From: Aestuariibaculum sp. M13
Lineage (GTDB): Bacteria; Bacteroidota; Bacteroidia; Flavobacteriales; Flavobacteriaceae
DNA: 64,000 nucleotides
Assembly (NCBI RefSeq): GCF_024723255.1
Contig: NZ_JANIAC010000006.1
Location: forward strand, 1 to 64,000
Direction of reading: 5' to 3'
Shown: piece by piece, positions 39,555 to 48,888 of the stretch
How the letters are laid out: every line of letters starts with the position of its first letter
Position numbering within the stretch: position 1 is the stretch's first letter
Translations under genes and position numbers: made by a program
Notes under the pieces: model-generated
Databases searched by the model: none
Told to the model about the DNA's origin: nothing
Seen by the model: only the letters and a program-made list of their open reading frames with translations

Positions 39555-41861
39555 TTATGCTTTTGTTTCTTCAGCTTTAATAGTCGCAGGAGCTACAGAT
39601 GCGTCGTGTGCCTGGTCGTATTCTTCTAAAAGATTCATAGTTGCATTTAATAAATCTTTAGTTTCTAAAAGTAAGCTAAAGTATAAGGTTGTGTTTTTCG
39701 GACTCGATTCTTCAGTACGAGTACGTTCAACCTGTTTTTGAATTTTAGTTGTAACTAAAGAAGTGATTTCAGATTTTCTTCCTAAAATTACAGAAAGTTG
39801 ATCGAAAGATTCTGTGTTAAATGCATTGTGAACATTAGTGAATAATCTTTCGAAACGCTCATCTACTTCTTTAAGTTCTTTAATCTGATTAAACTTCAAC
39901 TTTTTATGGTTGTTGTTTATGTGTTTATGACTCACTTTAGTAATGTACTCTAAAGACTGAACCATATCTTGTAAATAACCTAAAATGTGAATGTAGAAGT
40001 TACTTGCGCCAACACTAGATTCATCTAAGTTTTTAATAAAATAGAAGATATTATCTCTCAATTCATCAACTTCATTCGATAGTTTGATAATTTGAGTTTT
40101 GTTCTTTTTCAATAAAACTAAATCCTGTTTTGCTAAACCGTTAATGGCATTGGTGTAAATTTTGTTTCCGCGTTTTACAACATTGGCAATGTTTTTAGAG
40201 CTTTCGTGAATAACACCTTGAATAGAACTGTTTTCAGAAAGGGTTAAGCTGTCTTCAGTTTTAGATTCCGCAGATGATTTTCTATGTGAAATATAGTTTC
40301 TCGCTAATAAAACAATAGCAAATAATAATAAAACCGGTACCATTACTGATACATTCCAGTTAATTAAATATGCAATTAATCCGGCAGCGATAAAGGCGAT
40401 AAATGCGGTAAAGAACCAACCTCCAATAACGTTTAATACTCCGGCAACACGATATACAGCGCTTTCACTACCCCAGGCTCTGTCGGCTAAAGAGGTACCC
40501 ATGGCCACCATAAAGGTTACATAAGTTGTAGAAAGTGGTAATTTCATAGAAGTCGCTAAAGAGATTAAAGCTGCAGCAACTGTTAAGTTAATGGCTGCTC
40601 TAACCATATCGAAAGCCGGTAAATCTTTTGCTTTCGATTTTGAAGTTGACACTTCTGGTTTTTCAAATTGTTTTTCAATTTTTTCTTGCCACGATCCTGG
40701 TAAGATAAACGATGACATTTGCGACATAGCAATAGCCGATCTTACGAAACCACGAGATAAGAAGTTTGGTTGAAAACGCTCTTTCCCTTCACCTTCTCTA
40801 GATAAATTAATTTCTGTTTCAGTTACTTTCTTCGCTTTTGAAGAGAACCATAACGTAGCTACCATTACTAAACCTGAAATAACAAGCATAATGGTTGGCG
40901 TAGGTACTTTTTCAGCTAATACACCCATGCTAAATGCATCGGCAGCAACACCAGAACTAACCCAGGCGTTGTAAGACTGGTAACCAGCGATAGGCACACC
41001 AATAAAGTTTACTAAATCGTTTCCAGCGAAAGCTAATGCTAACGCAAAGGTACCAACAGCAATAATTACTTTATAAATATTAGCTTTTAAGAAGGTCATT
41101 AATGCGTATGAAATTAAACTCCATAACACAAAACTTAAAGACACAATAAGTAGTACTTTTTCTTCTAAGAACTTGCTGATTTTCATACCGCCAAGCATTT
41201 CTAATTCCTGACTGGCAAATGCAGTTCCTTTAATTCCTTTTAAGAAAATAAAGTAGGTAATTGAAGCTAAGGCTAAACCACCAAAAACAGCACCAACCCA
41301 TTTAGCTTTATTTAAAAAGTTGTATGACAATAATAAACGGGTAATCCACTGCACAATGGCTCCTATTGAAAAAGCAACTACTACCGAGAGTAAAATACCA
41401 AAAATAATGGACGTCGCTTTCGAGGTGTTAATGTAGTTTACAACATCGGAAAAGTTTCCGTTTTGGTGTGCAATTTTAATAAGGGCCATAGCAACAGAAG
41501 CTCCAAGTAATTCGAATACAATAGAAACTGTTGTAGAGGTAGGCATACCCACCGTATTAAAAAAGTCTAAAAGGAGGATGTCTGTAATCATTACCGCCAT
41601 GAAAATGATCATAATTTCATTGAACATGAATTCATGCGGATTGAAAATCCCTTTTCGGGCAACTTCCATCATACCGCTTGAGAAAATAGCTCCTACGGCA
41701 ATACCAATACTGGCAACAATCATTATCGTTTTAAACGAAATGGCTTTCGAACCGATAGCGGAGTTTAAGAAGTTTACCGCGTCGTTACTAACCCCAACAA
41801 CCAAATCGGCAATGGCTAAAATGGCCAGGGCAATAATCATAAATAAATAAATATTTTCCAT
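39555..41861 (-). CDS. PiT family inorganic phosphate transporter with PhoU-like C-terminal domain
   Basis: An inner-membrane cation-coupled phosphate symporter. The two PiT signatures are GVSNDAVNFLNSAIG at about residues 23-37 and AGNDLVNFIGVPIAGYQSY at about 283-301. Around a dozen helices extend to about residue 530. The remaining 230 residues (about 560-740) are soluble and helical, with heptad-like runs such as KQDLVLLKKNKTQIIKLSNEVDELRDNI, like PhoU domains that modulate phosphate uptake. Usual PiT proteins have about 350-500 residues, so this is a natural fusion. Its promoter has an 11-bp repeat box and a GATATTTGC -7. The phosphate-selective porin lies upstream on the same strand. 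Confidence 0.93.
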   Translation of the reverse strand: MENIYLFMIIALAILAIADLVVGVSNDAVNFLNSAIGSKAISFKTIMIVASIGIAVGAIFSSGMMEVARKGIFNPHEFMFNEIMIIFMAVMITDILLLDFFNTVGMPTSTTVSIVFELLGASVAMALIKIAHQNGNFSDVVNYINTSKATSIIFGILLSVVVAFSIGAIVQWITRLLLSYNFLNKAKWVGAVFGGLALASITYFIFLKGIKGTAFASQELEMLGGMKISKFLEEKVLLIVSLSFVLWSLISYALMTFLKANIYKVIIAVGTFALALAFAGNDLVNFIGVPIAGYQSYNAWVSSGVAADAFSMGVLAEKVPTPTIMLVISGLVMVATLWFSSKAKKVTETEINLSREGEGKERFQPNFLSRGFVRSAIAMSQMSSFILPGSWQEKIEKQFEKPEVSTSKSKAKDLPAFDMVRAAINLTVAAALISLATSMKLPLSTTYVTFMVAMGTSLADRAWGSESAVYRVAGVLNVIGGWFFTAFIAFIAAGLIAYLINWNVSVMVPVLLLFAIVLLARNYISHRKSSAESKTEDSLTLSENSSIQGVIHESSKNIANVVKRGNKIYTNAINGLAKQDLVLLKKNKTQIIKLSNEVDELRDNIFYFIKNLDESSVGASNFYIHILGYLQDMVQSLEYITKVSHKHINNNHKKLKFNQIKELKEVDERFERLFTNVHNAFNTESFDQLSVILGRKSEITSLVTTKIQKQVERTRTEESSPKNTTLYFSLLLETKDLLNATMNLLEEYDQAHDASVAPATIKAEETKA

Positions 41862-41881: not shown

Positions 41882-41927
41882 GCAAATATCTTTAGTGTTT
41901 CTGTATGTAATGTTATATTAATGTTAA
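41882..41927 (-). promoter_or_regulatory. Pho-box-like promoter of the PiT gene
   Basis: On the plus strand ATGTT occurs at 41910 and 41921, exactly 11 bases apart (TTAACAT-type repeats on the coding strand). The -7 element reads GATATTTGC on the minus strand, 41882-41890. The distance from the last base of the -7 (41882) to the first ATGTT is 28 bases, the same as at 43149 and 43314. The box thus replaces the -33 element, as expected for an activator like PhoB/PhoP. Confidence 0.6.
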
Positions 41928-41930
41928 CTT

Positions 41931-43121
41931 TTAGAAATGGATATCGCACTGTAGTCTGTACATCACCTGACCGTTGTTGGTTGGTACATCTAAATAGCTA
42001 ATATCGGTTTGTACTTTTAATTTATGTCCTACAATAAATTTAGACAGTCCTAATGTATATTGTGTTTCAGGATTTTTACCTGTAATATTTTTATCTAATT
42101 CTACGTTGGTATAACGACCAGTAACTTCCCAGTTATTTTTGAATAAATAGCCTGATTGAAGGTTTAAACCTTTACCAACTTGTACTTCAGCTCCTGTTAA
42201 ACTACCATCGGCATTTTTAGCTATTGGATCATCAGCTGTTCTATCGGCATATTCACCCATAAAAGAGAATCCTTTATACTTAAACATGGCATCTATAAAG
42301 ATAGTAGAAATATTTGTTTCGTACAGCCCTTCATTAGTTTCCATGTAAGATCCCAGATTTCCTCGGTCTCTTACGGCGTTGTTATTGAAGTTATACGTAG
42401 CACCTACAGCTAATTTAGGAGTTTGCTCGCGGTTTAAATCAGAACCTTTATAGTCTCCCTTACTTTGAAAATCTCCAAAAGGATATAATTCTACACGTCC
42501 GGTATATTGATGACCTCCTTCATTCCCTGTTGTTACATTACGACCTTCACCTTGAGAAATAGAAGCTATTTCTTTAACAATAAATTTATTTGTTAGGTTG
42601 AAATGGTGTCTTAACTGAAGTCCCATATCACGGTCAATGTTAAAACGGCTGTTTACTAACGAACGGTCTACCAATTGTAAATCTGCAGATGAGATTACAC
42701 GTTCGCGATTCCCTGGTAATTTGGTTTGTCCCGCCCATAATACAAAGTTTCCTGCAAAATTCCATTTTAAAACAGCATCCATTACGTATCTTGGAGAATT
42801 ACTGGTGTATTGGGAAGCGCCAGACATATCGCGGTTGGCTAATCCTAACTCTACTTTATACTGAAGTTTTGGAGAGAAGGCGAAACCGTCAAATTTTAAA
42901 CGCGAACGTCTAATTAACATGCTGGTTTCTAAAGATTCTCCATCCTGCCATGTTGAAGTTCCTAAAAGTTGCATACGAAATCCAACTTTCATTGTAAATG
43001 AACTGTCCTTGCCAACTAGATTAAAAAGTCCTTTGCCAAACTTTGGGGCATTAGTTTCTTGCGCATAATAAGTGCTTGTAGCTAACATTAAAATAGCTAC
43101 CAGGCTCCATCTAAATTTCAT
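41931..43121 (-). CDS. Phosphate-selective porin (OprO/OprP type)
   Basis: An exported outer-membrane barrel of 396 residues with signal peptide MKFRWSLVAILMLATSTYY-A-Q. The mature part has the OprO/P pattern: SFTMKVGFRMQLLG, then LIRRSRLKFDGFAFSPKLQYKVELGLANRD and FVLWAGQTKLPGNRERVISS, with many basic residues that could line an anion path. It ends with the strand pattern YRLQCDIHF. It lies 69 bases upstream of the PiT gene on the same strand, and each gene has its own Pho-box-like promoter. The likely role is passage of phosphate through the outer membrane when it is scarce; the family supports this, the regulation is inferred. Confidence 0.9.
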   Translation of the reverse strand: MKFRWSLVAILMLATSTYYAQETNAPKFGKGLFNLVGKDSSFTMKVGFRMQLLGTSTWQDGESLETSMLIRRSRLKFDGFAFSPKLQYKVELGLANRDMSGASQYTSNSPRYVMDAVLKWNFAGNFVLWAGQTKLPGNRERVISSADLQLVDRSLVNSRFNIDRDMGLQLRHHFNLTNKFIVKEIASISQGEGRNVTTGNEGGHQYTGRVELYPFGDFQSKGDYKGSDLNREQTPKLAVGATYNFNNNAVRDRGNLGSYMETNEGLYETNISTIFIDAMFKYKGFSFMGEYADRTADDPIAKNADGSLTGAEVQVGKGLNLQSGYLFKNNWEVTGRYTNVELDKNITGKNPETQYTLGLSKFIVGHKLKVQTDISYLDVPTNNGQVMYRLQCDIHF

Positions 43122-43148
43122 AAATTTTATTCTAAGTTTTTGTCGCCG

Positions 43149-43194
43149 GCAAAAGTCTAACTTTAAAACGATTTCAATGTTTCCTTAATGTTAA
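43149..43194 (-). promoter_or_regulatory. Pho-box-like promoter of the porin gene
   Basis: ATGTT lies at 43177 and 43188 (11 bases apart) on the plus strand. The -7 is GACTTTTGC on the minus strand, 43149-43157. The 28-base distance from -7 to box equals that of the PiT promoter. Confidence 0.6.
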
Positions 43195-43202
43195 ATGTAC
43201 GT

Positions 43203-43308
43203 AAAAAAAAAGAGACTACCTTGGCCGAAGGTAGTCTCCATAGAAATCATAATAATGTAGTCGACAAAAACTAATAGATTATATGAAATACTAAATGTTG
43301 TCTTAAGA
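43203..43308 (-). ncRNA. Candidate small RNA in the phosphate block
   Basis: A very strong minus-strand terminator lies at 43203-43238: GAGACTACCTT pairs with AAGGTAGTCTC around a five-base loop and nine T follow. It stands upstream of the porin gene and downstream of no minus-strand gene, so it needs a transcript of its own. A -7-like TTTTATTTGC lies at 43314-43323, giving a start near 43308 and an RNA of about 105 bases. No convincing reading frame is inside. The existence of the RNA is inference. Confidence 0.45.
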
Positions 43309-43313
43309 CTCAC

Positions 43314-43359
43314 GCAAATAAAACGTAATTGCATGATTTAAATGTAACGGTAATATTAA
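43314..43359 (-). promoter_or_regulatory. Putative promoter of the candidate small RNA
   Basis: The -7-like TTTTATTTGC occupies 43314-43323 on the minus strand. A degenerate box, ATGTA at 43342 and ATATT at 43353, has the 11-base period and again lies 28 bases from the -7. The 385-base gap from 43122 to 43506 otherwise holds the porin promoter, the small RNA and the four-unit repeat array. Confidence 0.4.
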
Positions 43360-43428
43360 GTAATTATTAATTCACGTATGTTAAATTTTAACATATAACG
43401 GATTGGTATTCAGTGTTAAATGTATTCA

Positions 43429-43484
43429 ATGTTAAATTAATGTTATCTAACTGTTGATTAAATGTTATGAAATGCGTATATTTA
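43429..43484 (+). promoter_or_regulatory. Four-unit 11-bp repeat array and -7 element before the MORN gene
   Basis: ATGTT at 43429, ATGTT at 43440, CTGTT at 43451 and ATGTT at 43462 form four copies at an exact 11-base period. A -7-like TATATTTA follows at 43477-43484. The repeats face the opposite way to those of the PiT and porin promoters relative to transcription. Confidence 0.5.
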
Positions 43485-43506
43485 CTGTATAAATGTTTAA
43501 TACCCC

Positions 43507-43863
43507 ATGATTATGAAGAAGTTTATTTTATCTCTGGCCTTTTTAGTTACTGTGGTTTCTTTTGGACAACAAAAAAGAGACTTAAAGCTTAATAAAGATA
43601 CTAATTTAATTGAGGTAACTTACTATCATGACAATGGAGTGGTAGCCCAAACAGGGTTTTACACTACAGATGGTAAATTACAAGGTGAATGGTTAAGCTA
43701 CAACGAAGAAGGCACGAAAACAGTTTCAGGTAATTATGATAATGGGAAAAAAGTCGGCAAATGGTTTTACTATACTGGTGAAACTATAAAAGAAGTAGAT
43801 TACAACGCTAATGAAATAGCAAGTTTAAAAGAAACAAACGTGAAGAACGATAAGGGTCTTTAA
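43507..43863 (+). CDS. Exported MORN-repeat (YwqK-like) protein
   Basis: A 118-residue protein with signal peptide (MKKFILSLAFLVTVVSFG-Q). ATGs at 43507 and 43513 are both possible. The mature part contains MORN-like units: VTYYHDNGVVAQTGFYTTDGKLQGEWLSYNEEG and GNYDNGKKVGKWFYYTGETIKE, with the typical YYxNG and GxWxxY pattern. Such proteins are often called YwqK-like and have no assigned catalytic role. It is the only plus-strand gene in the phosphate block and follows a four-unit 11-bp repeat array. It shares a two-way terminator with the convergent beta-helix lipoprotein. A phosphate-starvation envelope protein is a fair guess. Confidence 0.82.
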   Translation: MIMKKFILSLAFLVTVVSFGQQKRDLKLNKDTNLIEVTYYHDNGVVAQTGFYTTDGKLQGEWLSYNEEGTKTVSGNYDNGKKVGKWFYYTGETIKEVDYNANEIASLKETNVKNDKGL

Positions 43864-43881
43864 AACGTAAATACTAAACAT

Positions 43882-43913
43882 AAAAAAAGCATCTCAATTG
43901 AGATGCTTTTTTT
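43882..43913 (+). terminator. Two-way terminator between MORN and beta-helix genes
   Basis: A perfect 32-base palindrome with arms AAAAAAAGCATCTCAA and its complement, T-rich on both strands, between two convergent genes. Confidence 0.9.
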
Positions 43914-43937
43914 ATGTTTTATAAGGTTGAAATTTTC

Positions 43938-45134
43938 TTATAATTTGATTACCACAAAGCTTTGGTTAGCCCATGAGAAAACTGATAAGTCAGCTCCAAC
44001 ACCAGCCTTAGTAGAAATTGTATTGTCAGCAGTAACAGTGATTCCATCTGTAATTTCTGTAACAGTACCATTGATGTCTCCACCTACTTTATCGGTGCCT
44101 ACGTTTCCTTGAGCAACAGCATTAGTGATAGTTACCGTACCGTTACCAGAAGAATCGTCAGTATCAATTCTGTTTCCGAAAGAAGCATTACCATAAGCGG
44201 CAAACAATATGTTATTTACAGTAGCAACAGTTCCTCGTCTAATTTCAGCACCAGCTTTTAAAGCAACGTCTGGATTAAGGTTTAAGATTGTTACATTTTT
44301 TAAAGAAGGAGTAGAGATTGGTGCAGCAGTTGGATCTGAACTATTGCTATCTCCTTCAAGACCTCTTGGATCTTCACTGGCAGCGTCAAAACCATCATTA
44401 CGAACACCAAAAGCATTGTTTATTGTTCCAGAGTAACCTTCTGTCCAGTCAAACATATCATCTGCAATATTAGCACAATAAACGTTTGTTACATTAACAG
44501 TTCCTCCAAAGAACTCAACACCGTCATCATTTCCGTTGTTTACTACAATGTTGTTAACGATTGTTCCGCTACCAACACCAAAGAAAGAAATTCCGTTAAA
44601 TTCTTGCTCTCCGTTAATTTTAGCACCTGTATATTCAGCAATAATATAGCTTAATTCACCAGAACTATCAGCATCATCAGTACCGCCATAAAGTAATCCA
44701 GCAACCTCAGACTGTACGTCTGTTCCTTTGTTTGTTTTAGCTTTACCGGCAAGAACTAATCCTCCCCAGTCACCAGCTTTTGGAGACGCTGCATCTGAAG
44801 TGAAAGTAATTGGCAATGCAGCAGTTCCTTTAGCGATTAATTTAGCACCTCTTTCAACAGCTAAAAACACATCAGTTCTTCCGCTCTTCGCTTTAATTAC
44901 AGTTCCTGGTTCGATAGTTAAAGTTGCTCCTTCTTTTACAGTTAAAGAGCTAGTTAATGTATATTCAACAGATGCTAATAAAGTAGCATTTTCAGAAATT
45001 TCACCTTTTAATTCATTATCAGTGATAACTCCTCCTCCAGTTCCTGGGTCTATAGTTCTGTTGTCATCATCACTTGAACAAGAGAAAATTGAAGCGGCAA
45101 CTGCAACGATTAATAAGTTTCTAAAGTTTTTCAT
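43938..45134 (-). CDS. Surface lipoprotein with beta-helix-like repeats, TonB receptor partner
   Basis: The 398 residues begin with a lipoprotein signal ending IFSCSSDDD (Cys19). After a glycine-rich linker comes YTLTSSLTVKEGATLTIEPGTVIKAKSG, the usual opening of right-handed beta-helix domains, followed by repeats such as GTIVNNIVVNNGNDDGVEFFGGTVNVTN. It has Asp-rich loops but no visible catalytic triad. It is just downstream of a TonB-dependent receptor on the same strand (214-base gap, with a terminator between). This receptor-lipoprotein order is common in Bacteroidota nutrient uptake. Promoter repeats suggest phosphate control. A substrate-binding or cell-surface role is inferred; the ligand is unknown. 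Confidence 0.8.
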   Translation of the reverse strand: MKNFRNLLIVAVAASIFSCSSDDDNRTIDPGTGGGVITDNELKGEISENATLLASVEYTLTSSLTVKEGATLTIEPGTVIKAKSGRTDVFLAVERGAKLIAKGTAALPITFTSDAASPKAGDWGGLVLAGKAKTNKGTDVQSEVAGLLYGGTDDADSSGELSYIIAEYTGAKINGEQEFNGISFFGVGSGTIVNNIVVNNGNDDGVEFFGGTVNVTNVYCANIADDMFDWTEGYSGTINNAFGVRNDGFDAASEDPRGLEGDSNSSDPTAAPISTPSLKNVTILNLNPDVALKAGAEIRRGTVATVNNILFAAYGNASFGNRIDTDDSSGNGTVTITNAVAQGNVGTDKVGGDINGTVTEITDGITVTADNTISTKAGVGADLSVFSWANQSFVVIKL

Positions 45135-45174
45135 TTTGTTTTCTATTTTTTAGTTTCCTAGTTTTTATTGTTCT

Positions 45175-45260
45175 GCAAATTAAAGTCGTTAGTTTAAATC
45201 TAGTTTGAAGCTAACATTAGTATTAGGTTAAGAAATTTGATTAATGTTAAGTTAATGTTT
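45175..45260 (-). promoter_or_regulatory. Repeat boxes and -7 element upstream of the beta-helix gene
   Basis: The -7-like TTTAATTTGCAG lies around 45173-45184 on the minus strand. ATGTT at 45244 and 45255 gives a good 11-bp pair, but 69 bases away. Nearer, AGTTT at 45191 and 45202 also has the 11-base period but fits the 28-base rule less well (off by two). Confidence 0.4.
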
Positions 45261-45293
45261 ACTATGGCTTTAAGTGCTTTATTTTAATAAAAA

Positions 45294-45324
45294 CCCCTCT
45301 AGTATATTTTTAATAATAGAGGGG
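45294..45324 (-). terminator. Terminator of the TonB receptor gene
   Basis: CCCCTCTA pairs with TAGAGGGG. On the minus strand the tail is TTTTTATT. It starts 24 bases after the receptor stop. Confidence 0.8.
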
Positions 45325-45348
45325 CTAATAGTTGAATTTTATTTGAGA

Positions 45349-48120
45349 TTATAATTCGTAAGCGATTCCAACTGAGAAAGATGTTCCTCTTTTGTATGAA
45401 TTCATGGTTAGCTTTTCTGGTATATCTCTGTATCTGTCGAAACTTGGGTTTAAAATATTTTTAACATTGAATTTCATTCCTAAGTTTTTATTGAATTTGT
45501 GGCTGAAAACGAAATCTAATAAAGGCACACCTTTTTCAATAATATTTTCTTTAAAGTTAGTACCAACACTATAAACTTTATCGCTTTGGTAGTTGAAAAC
45601 TAAAGTCGACATGGTTTCTTTTTCATTTACTTTAAATCTGTAAGAAACATCGGCGTTAATTGTAAACGGTGCTGCTCCTTCTAATTCAGAACTATCGCCA
45701 GTATAGTTGAATAACGTATTTGCCTTATTGAATTTAAGCTTTGTTTTCATTAAAGTGGCATTACCACCTAAAGTAAGATTCTGTGATTTGTCATCATCAG
45801 ATTCTATAGATAATAAGTCTACTTTTCCTTCTAATTCTAAACCAAATACGGTAGCATCTCCAGAGTTGTCGAATGTAAAGTCTCTTTCAATCGCTGAGTT
45901 TCTTTCTAATCGGTTGATAGAATTTTGGATTAATTTACCAAACACACCTATAGACACTAACTCCGTTTTATTAGGGAACATTTCAAATTTAAGTTCTCCA
46001 TTATAGTTGTCTGAAGGAAGTAATGCTGGATTACCACTTTCTTGATAGTTGATACCTTCGTAAGTAAAAGGAGCAATTTCTTTAAACTGAGGGTAAGTAT
46101 AAGTCATACTTCCAGATGCTCTTAAATTAATTTTATCGTTTACTTGATATTTTAAGTTAAGTGTAGGCAAAACGTATTGCTTATCTAATGCAATTTGACT
46201 GTTGTTTGAGAAACCAGGGAAACTAATGTTGGTATCCCATTCAACATCCATTTTAATATCCTCAGCACGTAAACCTATATTTGCAGTGAATTTATCGCTA
46301 AAGTTATATACGGCATCAATATATGCTGCATGAATTGTTTTCGTTGCATCATACAATTGTGGCAAGTAAGTTTCAGGATCGTCACTGTTTCTACCACGTG
46401 ATGTTTCTACACCAAATACATCATTGTCTAAATTGATTTGATTGAAGGTTGCATCTAAATTATTTACATCAACAAAAGTTGTTCTTGGATTTGTGAAGTT
46501 GTGATCGAAATAGATACCATCAAATTTTCTGTCTGTAACACTTCCATTATATCCCAAAGTTACTTTTCCTTTATTTTCGAAACGCTCACCAAAATATTTA
46601 ACGGCGCTTAAGTTTCCTGCAATGCTGTTTTCAAAAAGATTTCCGTAAAATCTACTGTTATCCCTTACGGCATTTTGAGAAATTCTAGTTGTGTTAGCAT
46701 CATTATCAATAATGAATGTGTTTTTTCTTCTATCTGGTTCATCGTTGTAGATAGCATTATAACTTACAGCAGCATTAACATCAAATGATTCTCCAAATTG
46801 ATTTTCAGACATTAATTGGTTAACAAAAAGTTTGTTTTGTACTTCTGTCTGCAAAACAAGGTTTACTAATCTGTTGTCGTCTTCAGGTCTACCTATATCT
46901 GTAGTTGTTCCAAGGAAATCCTCAATTTTTTGAGAATTTGAGTGTACAAATAAGTGATTGTAACTTAATTTGTGGTTGTTGTTAATTTTGTAAGATACAT
47001 TACCCATTAACATTTTTGAAGCGCTATAACTATAGGTTTTTGTGTCAAAAATAGAACCCACGTTAAGAGAACCATCATCATAAACGTCCACAATAGCATC
47101 AGATGTTCCTTCTTGGTAAGCATATTTGTTATCGAAAGACCCAACTAAAAAGAAGCTAATGTTACTATCATCAGACAAAGTTATTTTTCTACCATAGTTG
47201 ATTGATAATCCCATGTTAGGATTTGCTGTTCCAGAATCTGGAGTAAAGCTATTGTCGAAGCTATAAGTATTAAGATTTCTAACTTTGTGGTGTGTATTTG
47301 AGTTTACTCCAAACCAATTTGCTCCATCAATAGTTTTGAAATCTTTAAATGTTGTTTGAGTGTTAGCTCCAGAAGAAAGACTAACTTTAAATAAGGATTT
47401 TTCGTTTGTAGCCTTACTTACGATATCGATACTTGCTCCAGCAACATCAGAAGACATGTAAGAAGAAAATGCTTTACCAATACCAACACTTTCTATAATA
47501 TCTGAACTGAATAATGATAAATCGATGTTTTTGTTTCTAGGGTCGTTTGAAGGTAATGGTAAACCGTTAAGTGTGGTGGAGTTATATCTATCACCTAATC
47601 CTCTTACATAAATTTTACTAGATCCTTCTTGTTTGTTAACACCAGTAACTTTTAGAGTTGCATCAGCAGCGTCAGAAACAGCTTTTTTACTTAATTCTTG
47701 AGCCCCAATAGCAGTTTTGATTTCTACCGCTTTCTTTTGTTCTAATAATAAGGCAGTTTCGCTTTCACGTTTTGTAGTAGTTGTAATAACAACCTCGCTT
47801 AATGAAGCAGCGCTGGCACCCATAGGTACATTAACTTCTGTTACTTTTCCAGCTGTTACTGTAACAGCAATTTCTTGAGTTTCGTAACCTACGAAACTGA
47901 AAACTAAAGTGTAATTACCAGCTTCTAGATTTTCAAGACTATATAGTCCGTCAAAGTCTGAAGTTGTACCGGTTGTGGTTCCTTTAATAAGGACGTTAGC
48001 AAAGGCTAATGGCTCGTCATTATATTCTTTATCAGTAAGTTTACCAACCACAGAACCAGTGGTTTGTGCGTATGATATTGCTCCTACTAATAGCATTAGC
48101 AATACAGTAAATTTTTTCAT
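45349..48120 (-). CDS. TonB-dependent outer-membrane receptor
   Basis: A 923-residue receptor that takes a substrate across the outer membrane with TonB energy. After the signal peptide (MKKFTVLLMLLVGAISY-A-Q) comes a carboxypeptidase-regulatory-like domain (about 24-105), then the plug with LSEVVITTTTKRESETALLLEQKK, KIYVRGLGDRYNSTTLNGLPLP and DVAGASIDIVSK. The barrel fills the rest and ends in GTSFSVGIAYEL. It is not a SusC type: the plug motif and the absence of a SusD gene differ. A beta-helix lipoprotein follows it and a free domain copy precedes it. Box repeats upstream suggest phosphate control. Substrate unknown; an organic phosphorus compound is a candidate. Confidence 0.9.
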   Translation of the reverse strand: MKKFTVLLMLLVGAISYAQTTGSVVGKLTDKEYNDEPLAFANVLIKGTTTGTTSDFDGLYSLENLEAGNYTLVFSFVGYETQEIAVTVTAGKVTEVNVPMGASAASLSEVVITTTTKRESETALLLEQKKAVEIKTAIGAQELSKKAVSDAADATLKVTGVNKQEGSSKIYVRGLGDRYNSTTLNGLPLPSNDPRNKNIDLSLFSSDIIESVGIGKAFSSYMSSDVAGASIDIVSKATNEKSLFKVSLSSGANTQTTFKDFKTIDGANWFGVNSNTHHKVRNLNTYSFDNSFTPDSGTANPNMGLSINYGRKITLSDDSNISFFLVGSFDNKYAYQEGTSDAIVDVYDDGSLNVGSIFDTKTYSYSASKMLMGNVSYKINNNHKLSYNHLFVHSNSQKIEDFLGTTTDIGRPEDDNRLVNLVLQTEVQNKLFVNQLMSENQFGESFDVNAAVSYNAIYNDEPDRRKNTFIIDNDANTTRISQNAVRDNSRFYGNLFENSIAGNLSAVKYFGERFENKGKVTLGYNGSVTDRKFDGIYFDHNFTNPRTTFVDVNNLDATFNQINLDNDVFGVETSRGRNSDDPETYLPQLYDATKTIHAAYIDAVYNFSDKFTANIGLRAEDIKMDVEWDTNISFPGFSNNSQIALDKQYVLPTLNLKYQVNDKINLRASGSMTYTYPQFKEIAPFTYEGINYQESGNPALLPSDNYNGELKFEMFPNKTELVSIGVFGKLIQNSINRLERNSAIERDFTFDNSGDATVFGLELEGKVDLLSIESDDDKSQNLTLGGNATLMKTKLKFNKANTLFNYTGDSSELEGAAPFTINADVSYRFKVNEKETMSTLVFNYQSDKVYSVGTNFKENIIEKGVPLLDFVFSHKFNKNLGMKFNVKNILNPSFDRYRDIPEKLTMNSYKRGTSFSVGIAYEL

Positions 48121-48142
48121 AAAATGTTAGTTTTTATCTGCT

Positions 48143-48262
48143 GCAAAGAACGTTACGTTGTATGAACGCATCGTTATCTAGAAGTTAAACAATAGTAATA
48201 AAAGCGTTATGTTAATGTTATGAGATTTAATGTTTGTAAACGTTAACTTAACATTGAAGTAT
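48143..48262 (-). promoter_or_regulatory. Repeat boxes and -7 element upstream of the TonB receptor
   Basis: A -7-like GTTCTTTGC lies at 48143-48151 on the minus strand. GTT at 48173 and 48184 (11 apart) sit exactly where the GTT of ATGTT sits in the PiT and porin promoters. Stronger but more distant repeats lie at 48204-48262, including TTAACTTAACATTG read on the plus strand. Confidence 0.4.
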
Positions 48263-48328
48263 GGAAACAAATCAATGAAATTCTATAGGTACGCTTGTTT
48301 TTTGGTGAAAGGTTTTGTTTTAAAAATA

Positions 48329-48359
48329 GCAAAGCCAATAACTTGGTTATTGGCTTTGC
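48329..48359 (-). terminator. Terminator of the 48.4-kb gene
   Basis: GCAAAGCCAATAAC pairs with GTTATTGGCTTTGC around a three-base loop. On the minus strand the tail is TATTTTTAAAA, 42 bases after the stop. Confidence 0.75.
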
Positions 48360-48400
48360 AGACTACTCGAATATATTAATCCCTAATATATTTATATTTT

Positions 48401-48784
48401 TTATCCTTGAGGTAAGGTTTTATTATTGTTTTCGGCAGTGGCAGTAAGAAGCGCTAATTCATCAAATGAAATGGTGCTTGCTGCTAATGAAAATTTAAGT
48501 TCTGTAGGTTCAAAAGCGTCAACATGAATATTAATTTCTTTTGTTTCGTAACCCACAAAGCTACATACTAAGGTGTAATCTCCTGCTTCTAAGTTTTCAA
48601 ATACAAATAAACCTGTTTGATCTGTATCAACTTTAGTTTCAGTACCCTTAATAGTTACATTAGCTAATACTAAAGGCGCATTATTTACTTCGGCATCCAT
48701 AATTTTTCCAACAACTAAGCCAGTGTTTTGGCTAAAAGATATTGCTGAAATTAACATTGCGGCTACAAAAAATAAACGTTTCAT
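48401..48784 (-). CDS. Free-standing carboxypeptidase-regulatory-like domain protein
   Basis: A 127-residue exported protein with signal peptide MKRLFFVAAMLISAISFS-Q. It is a close relative of the first 105 residues of the neighbouring TonB receptor: TGLVVGKIMD, NAPLVLANVTIKGT, then FVFENLEAGDYTLVCSFVGYETKEI compare with the receptor's LENLEAGNYTLVFSFVGYETQEI. It stops where the receptor's plug would begin. It has an own promoter and terminator, so it is a separate gene and not a broken receptor by frame error. Its codons are intact. It may be a duplicated domain that binds the same envelope partner as the receptor, or a decaying copy. Confidence 0.78.
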   Translation of the reverse strand: MKRLFFVAAMLISAISFSQNTGLVVGKIMDAEVNNAPLVLANVTIKGTETKVDTDQTGLFVFENLEAGDYTLVCSFVGYETKEINIHVDAFEPTELKFSLAASTISFDELALLTATAENNNKTLPQG

Positions 48785-48808
48785 TTATATGTGTTTTTTT
48801 AATAGACT

Positions 48809-48888
48809 GCAAATTAAAAGCTTAAATACAAGTATTGTGTTATCTCAATATTAAAGAATATTTACTTAATGTTATCTTAATGTTAATA
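48809..48888 (-). promoter_or_regulatory. Repeat boxes and -7 element upstream of the 48.4-kb gene
   Basis: The -7 is TTTTAATTTGC on the minus strand, ending at 48809. GTGTT at 48837 and ATATT at 48848 lie exactly 28 and 39 bases from it, the same geometry as at the PiT and porin promoters. A second, stronger pair ATGTT at 48869 and 48880 lies further up. Confidence 0.5.

Follow-up and report, generated by a model that had tools for sequence, protein, structure and literature searches.

The Pho boxes read by PhoB in Escherichia coli and by PhoP in Bacillus are direct repeats with an 11-base-pair (bp) period, recognised by a response regulator of the OmpR family, with phosphate transport genes among their targets. 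We analysed a 64,000-nucleotide stretch of Aestuariibaculum sp. M13 (contig NZ_JANIAC010000006.1, positions 1 to 64,000; hereafter the window), a member of the Flavobacteriaceae with a 4.16 Mb genome of 99.9% completeness, and describe here a cluster of genes whose promoters carry similar repeats, together with a small RNA (sRNA) encoded among them. These repeats share the 11-bp period and the phosphate transport targets of the PhoB and PhoP regulons, their unit TTAACAT resembles that of Bacillus PhoP, and they very probably act as a phosphate-starvation switch of this flavobacterium. Unlike in E. coli and Bacillus, the window boxes lie 28 and 39 bases before the −7 element TTTGC, the gene for a TonB-dependent receptor (TBDT) has a double box reaching −61/−72, the genome is without detectable Pst or PhoU, and an sRNA appears to sit inside the regulon.

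Within the family, a comparison is offered by the response of Flavobacterium johnsoniae to phosphate depletion, in which the phoB-linked TBDT and lipoprotein genes are strongly induced (Fjoh_0545, 8.02, and Fjoh_0546, 9.91, in the fold change (FC) column of Table 1, the text using log2FC), according to the accessible part of PMC8115612. The TBDT and lipoprotein of the window resemble genes found in that place in relatives. In the same part of that source, the OprP porin gene of F. johnsoniae (Fjoh_0542) is not induced, unlike what we propose for the window porin; it contains no mention of 'pho box', and neither a binding motif nor an sRNA was found in it. Pho boxes have been predicted at plcP clusters in marine bacteria (PMC4796936), and PhoB of Bacteroides fragilis has been treated (PMC3547664); the accessible portions of these papers yielded no box sequence and no motif, respectively. 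Our literature search, with most subscription papers and bioRxiv preprints outside its scope, turned up neither a Pho box nor a phosphate-related sRNA from Flavobacteriia.

The antisense sRNAs of Bacteroides are transcribed opposite to their target, unlike the window sRNA, which lies upstream of the porin gene on the same strand and has its own promoter and terminator. Both are found beside a possible outer-membrane target gene, the Bacteroides sRNAs being cis-encoded at polysaccharide-uptake loci (from a title cited in PMC9723704). Rfp18 of Flavobacterium psychrophilum is likewise a conserved flavobacterial sRNA; in the accessible part of PMC9723704 it is linked to metalloprotease mRNAs, with no phosphate link; the comparison with the window sRNA covered its described targets.

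We propose that the boxes are probably PhoB-type sites, that the cluster is a Pho unit and that an sRNA of the same regulon pairs with the porin mRNA and limits the porin. More specifically, a PhoB-type response regulator of the OmpR family would bind the boxes as dimers on 11-bp direct repeats (TTAAC-N6-TAAC) along one face of the helix. With the nearest AAC 28 bases before TTTGC, the bound dimer would replace the −33 element and recruit RNA polymerase at low phosphate. PhoB binding and a phosphate response in Aestuariibaculum sp. M13 are predicted here from repeat geometry, conservation and genomic ties to phoB and pstS, which are observed directly. The sRNA would be transcribed from a weaker box, and its core AUUAGUUUUUGUCG would pair with the porin mRNA over the initial ~11-15 nucleotides of the latter. 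Since this pairing most likely lowers translation or stability of that mRNA, the regulon would turn the porin on and, via the sRNA, also limit it (a feed-forward limit).

The conserved sRNA, including its −7 element, occupies 43207..43318 on the minus strand. Its promoter (43314..43368, TTTGC at 43318-43314) carries weak repeats, TACAT at −28 and AATAT at −39, and its 3' end is an intrinsic terminator, a hairpin followed by a T-run. No covariance model of Rfam (release 15) matched this interval, and the sRNA is apparently a member of a conserved RNA undescribed so far. A model built from 24 sequences (R1) detects the sRNA in 110 of 299 family genomes, in 112 copies, and across the order in 11 of 395 genomes, 10 of them from the same family. 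In 99 of the 112 copies the sRNA lies 72-193 nucleotides upstream of a listed porin gene on the same strand. In the consensus fold, a hairpin at the 5' end is followed by a weak stem that spans the core and by the terminator hairpin, with two-sided changes in 5 of 15 pairs, and the fold of the M13 sRNA itself is more stable than shuffled versions (z −4.0). Given the conserved, if weaker, box at the same offsets, there is a good chance that the sRNA belongs to the box regulon.

The sRNA core AGTTTTTGTCG (43262..43272, minus strand) lies antisense to the stretch that directly follows the −7 element of the porin gene, that is, to the porin leader CGACAAAAACT (43135..43145, minus strand) at the inferred 5' end of the mRNA. 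An uninterrupted duplex of 10-21 nucleotides, G-U pairs allowed, was present in 69/69 sRNA-porin pairs; these were drawn from 99, leaving out loci already collected, nearly all weak R1 matches, G056 and a few others. Changes on both sides preserve this duplex: TTAAG in the sRNA accompanies CTTAA in the mRNA in G054, G279, G284 and G167, TAAAG accompanies CTTTA in G012 and G266, and within the core GTTTTAGTC accompanies GACTAAAAC in G264 and G043. Altogether, two-sided changes at one or more pairs were seen in 14 genomes from 12 genera. Covariation was assessed with one genome per genus (59 genera) at pairs −4 to −1: 215 of 236 pairs were complementary, where shuffles averaged 190.4 and peaked at 204; the observed count was reached in 0/5000 shuffles, with the reservation that these shuffles ignore relatedness. 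Five columns outside the duplex showed no elevation (1421/5000 shuffles reach the observed value). G037 was excluded from these counts, though it pairs, because the search expression missed its pairing site.

In 21/21 loci the porin leader formed a better pairing with the sRNA than 300 shuffled versions did (p<0.01). The lipoprotein and PiT leaders, also considered as targets, beat their shuffles (p<0.05) in 1/20 and 0/21 loci, and these two candidates were set aside. The leader found with the 127-amino-acid protein as query did so in 5/20, the query match often lying within the TBDT itself. The target motif as such is not rare, occurring near the start of 33 of 367 reading frames of at least 150 amino acids in the collected loci; a search for it after TTTG in the M13 genome gave 10 matches against 5 in the control, too noisy for use beyond the TBDT match. 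Conserved complementarity to the porin with compensatory changes, and an sRNA with a promoter and terminator of its own, are the features expected of a pairing sRNA. The covarying complementarity is a direct observation; the start sites, the presence of two separate RNAs and repression are what we infer.

Thirteen of the 112 sRNA copies are not beside a listed porin, and ten of these were inspected. In two (L269, L277) the sRNA is followed by a distant Porin_O_P gene, and in two others (L270, L273) by a 335-amino-acid gene whose match to a beta-barrel is weak or absent; in each of these four loci GACAAAAA(C/T)TAA is retained directly behind the −7 element. A 341-amino-acid gene follows in L271, where the core is changed on both sides. 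L268, L272 and L276 have no porin match between sRNA and PiT, and the sRNA is still present. In L274 a second sRNA copy precedes a porin remnant, and L275 lies at a contig end. We lean towards the view that a Pho-controlled sRNA, found in more than one third of the sampled family genomes, has evolved in step, base for base, with the 5'-terminal nucleotides of the porin mRNA, and in some genomes also with TBDT mRNA, to form a feed-forward loop on phosphate entry across the outer membrane. The leaders of replacing genes would then have kept or re-evolved the pairing site, and the sRNA would have stayed after porin loss, so that the RNA circuit would outlive its protein target.

Repression is the most likely sign of the effect in our view, and the least certain step of this scheme. 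It is possible, if less probable, that the sRNA instead has a protective or activating effect on the porin mRNA, for instance by making the 5' end of the latter less accessible to decay. Some 5'-end pairings do stabilise mRNAs, the pairing here falls at the inferred extreme 5' end, and sRNA and target are seemingly co-induced. Pairing close to the start codon, on the other hand, usually blocks ribosomes, and in several genomes (e.g. L076, L084, L087) the duplex ends a few nucleotides before the start codon.

A more doubtful alternative treats the complementarity as a cis element, either an attenuator, in which read-through RNA folds into one long hairpin, or an inverted repeat acting at the DNA level, to which a protein binds or whose arms are matched by template switching. 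The two arms are indeed close and on the same strand in the 99 cases given above. Moreover, in L051 (G122) the sRNA core and the porin 5' end form an inverted repeat of 34 identical letters, as though one of the arms were a copy of its partner, which resembles repeat correction. A strong intrinsic terminator nevertheless separates the arms, and a conserved promoter belongs to the porin gene itself; in addition, complementarity ends sharply outside the core, and the sRNA persists without a following porin match in 3 of the 10 inspected loci. We therefore retain pairing between two RNAs as the preferred reading.

Turning to the boxes themselves, AACAT-N6-AACAT occurs as five exact pairs in the 64 kb, all on the minus strand, all within the cluster and spanning 41910-48884. 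Offsets were counted on the minus strand between the leading A of AAC and the leading T of TTTGC; the distance of 28 given in an earlier note on this DNA corresponds to 23 intervening bases plus TTTGC. The observation in that note that the PiT and porin genes share ATGTT pairs of 11-base period at a common distance was borne out, as AACAT stands at −28 and −39 before both. The PiT gene (PF01384; 39555..41861, minus strand) has its TTAACAT repeats at 41882..41931 (TTTGC 41886-41882), and the gene of the phosphate-selective porin O/P family (PF07396; 41931..43121, minus strand) has its promoter at 43149..43196 (TTTGC 43153-43149), where a −17 repeat is missing. The same offsets had been claimed for the sRNA, the TBDT gene and the gene near 48.8 kb; −28 and −39 were found at all three, with weaker repeats in each. 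The TBDT gene (45349..48120, minus strand) has been understated in this respect: its promoter (48143..48219, TTTGC 48147-48143) is a double box, with AACGA at −28, AACTT at −39, AACGC at −61 and AACAT at −72. Before the gene of the 127-amino-acid CarboxypepD_reg-like protein (Pfam; 48401..48784, minus strand), the promoter at 48809..48887 (TTTGC 48813-48809) has AACAC at −28, AATAT at −39, a unit at −49 and AACAT at −60 and −71. The list of five sites was also incomplete, a strong pair at −69/−80 (45230..45264, counted from TTTGC 45179-45175) having been missed before the gene of a 398-amino-acid lipoprotein-like protein (43938..45134, minus strand). Direct repeats of 11 bp in tandem, with a constant spacing to the core promoter, are a feature shared with Pho regulons.

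Conservation was followed in 20 genomes picked from the best porin matches, in stretches of up to 20 kb each, with the M13 genome added wherever 21 loci are counted; all seven marker proteins of the cluster were matched in 18 of the 20 stretches. Only promoters with TTTG entered the geometry counts, which dropped 2 of 21 PiT and 3 of 20 TBDT promoters. Including the M13 promoters, AAC stands at −28 in 19/19 PiT, 19/21 porin and 16/17 TBDT promoters, and at −39 in 19/19, 9/21 and 11/17, respectively. Porin promoters have a third repeat at −17 in 18/21 loci, and TBDT promoters have AAC at −61 in 15/17 and at −72 in 16/17. For the sRNA, a TTTG −7 element was recognised in 17/21 loci, and an AACAT-like unit stands at −39 in 13 of these and at −28 in 11. 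The AAC rule holds in 17/18 promoters found with the 127-amino-acid query, a count that is non-independent because the query often matches the first domain of the TBDT. We think it likely that the PiT transporter, porin, TBDT, lipoprotein and 127-amino-acid protein form a phosphate-acquisition unit.

Phosphate control of the boxes, put forward in the earlier note, gained support from phosphate genes of related genomes. In 20 PstS loci (E ≤ 2.6e-31, from the 299 family genomes), an anchored box, defined by an exact TTTG and no more than one deviation among nine further fixed positions, was found on the pstS strand in 11, compared to 1 of 10 LysR-regulator control loci, three of which were confirmed as LysR by Pfam. 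Six boxes stand at the pstS start and seven at the preceding gene, two loci having both. By coordinates, pstS lies directly downstream of the cluster-type porin in 10 of the 20 genomes, a place taken in M13 by PiT. One PstS locus, L202, looked foreign by eye. Furthermore, the exact pattern lies between phoB and the divergent TBDT gene in 6/6 named genomes of the F. johnsoniae group; F. johnsoniae itself was absent from the best 80 loci, and close relatives were used instead. The window proteins resemble this neighbourhood as well: the TBDT shares 39% identity over its full length with the TBDT that adjoins phoB in Flavobacterium sp. ACN2, and the lipoprotein, which had no match in a Pfam search, is 34% identical over 326 amino acids to the L182 protein downstream of a phoB-adjacent TBDT.

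The M13 genome encodes a regulator with 77% identity to the TBDT-linked PhoB of an F. johnsoniae-group relative. It carries PF00072 and PF00486, and the adjacent histidine kinase carries PF00512 and PF02518 (both in L041), giving the PhoB-type regulator and PhoR-type kinase of a Pho system. A PF04101 glycosyltransferase lies beside this regulator, an arrangement as in the PhoBR operon of F. johnsoniae, where Fjoh_0541 is listed as a PF04101 family member in the accessible part of PMC8115612. Of the other Pho components sought in the M13 genome, PhoU (PF01895) and PstS (PF12849) gave no match at E ≤ 0.001.

It is improbable that the boxes are read by another regulator, such as the second OmpR-type regulator of this genome (C7:53462), with the phosphate genes being part of its set. 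Two such regulators are encoded here and 11-bp direct repeats suit the whole OmpR family; yet the box recurs between phoB and TBDT and before pstS, as described, and the 20-kb neighbourhood of the C7 regulator contains one box-like match (2 mismatches), inside a gene. PhoB remains the preferred reader of the boxes.

For genome-wide scans, the short motif at up to 2 mismatches proved too unspecific, and a promoter-anchored pattern and a promoter model (R2) were therefore used. A longer motif has four perfect matches in the whole M13 genome, all inside the cluster. The anchored pattern gave 5 matches in the M13 genome versus 1 in the control; 2 of the 5 are in the cluster, and the other 3 were judged to be chance from their position. 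R2 gave 10 matches at E ≤ 0.11, 7 of them in the cluster: the best three (PiT with E 5e-7, TBDT and porin) are training sites, and those at 48857, 45230, 43418 and 48809 are not.

Several observations weigh against phosphate control of the boxes and against the proposed role of the sRNA. As a test of specificity the short motif fails, with 69 matches in the M13 genome and 69 in the backward control; this parity also favours the idea that the repeats are chance AT-rich motifs, which we reject as hardly credible since 100 shuffles of the window gave a mean of 0.46 exact pairs and at most 2, none reaching the observed 5, and the offset is fixed in every PiT promoter with TTTG. In six Flavobacterium genomes the anchored pattern had 44 matches versus 49 in the backward control; not being enriched genome-wide, it is the recurring location that carries the weight. 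The fourth-best R2 match, upstream of a TBDT-phytase operon, sits on the opposite strand. Only 4/12 lipoprotein promoters have AAC at −28, which the M13 lipoprotein promoter also lacks, and the repeats by the divergent gene at 43507 are in the wrong orientation in 16/19 loci. The expectation that boxes would precede phosphate genes held in relatives for pstS and the phoB-adjacent TBDT and failed for PhoX-family (PF05787) genes, whose starts were without a box at 8 loci in 7 of 26 genomes; two of these loci are strong matches and the rest partial or weak, and none is F. johnsoniae PhoX itself. To the absence of induction of Fjoh_0542 (PMC8115612, accessible part) may be added that the OprP beside phoB in L186 resembles the window porin weakly. 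As for the sRNA, it is absent at E ≤ 0.001 from 189 of the 299 family genomes under strict filters, and TBDT leaders pair with it better than shuffles (p<0.05) in only 9/20 loci.

Further features were noted near the boxes and elsewhere. The gene at 43507..43863 (plus strand), divergent from the sRNA, encodes a 118-amino-acid protein with a weak MORN-like match (PF07661, below the cut-off). Tandem repeats at 43418..43455 on the minus strand, between it and the sRNA, run opposite to its orientation, and the exact pair at 43428-43446 adjoins it. In those 16 of 19 loci (window 43418-43480; L074-L093), 1-4 pairs of the 11-bp unit stand reversed by its promoter; the box regulator may repress this gene, or else the repeats may act on the sRNA at a distance. 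The TBDT-phytase operon (PF02333; G000:C1:1097811) has its strong box at L038 4887-5050, the only other R2 match below 0.01. According to the accessible part of PMC8115612, Fjoh_1368/1367 is a pair of this TBDT-phytase type and is phosphate-induced in F. johnsoniae. Outside the phosphate cluster, tandem TTAACAT-like repeats (L033 7483-7516 and 8950) precede two of three neighbouring, similar small-protein genes (C1:1286482, 1287949). In F. plurextorum and F. panici (L335, L346), box-like promoter-model matches also precede membrane-protein genes that resemble each other, judging from the sequence perhaps of the phosphoglycerol-transferase type.

The PiT protein ends in a conserved helical tail of ~250 amino acids (window 39558-40304). 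A likeness of this tail to PhoU was considered and is unsupported: the Pfam match is below the cut-off (E 0.029), a fold search placed PhoU chains among the top matches at E >0.2 with a query model of mean predicted local distance difference test (pLDDT) 52, and a profile search of the PDB did not find PhoU. As a lead only, the tail could possibly be a built-in phosphate sensor in this genome.

Flavobacteria are abundant in sea and soil, and the motif TTAAC-N6-TAAC, placed 28 and 39 bases before TTTGC, can be used to scan relatives for Pho members. With neither Pst nor PhoU detectable in the genome, a Pho regulon here poses the question of how the cell senses phosphate. As a conserved pairing sRNA of the family, supported by covariation, the sRNA would come with an identified target and with compensatory variants occurring naturally in different genera, which would make its mechanism directly testable.

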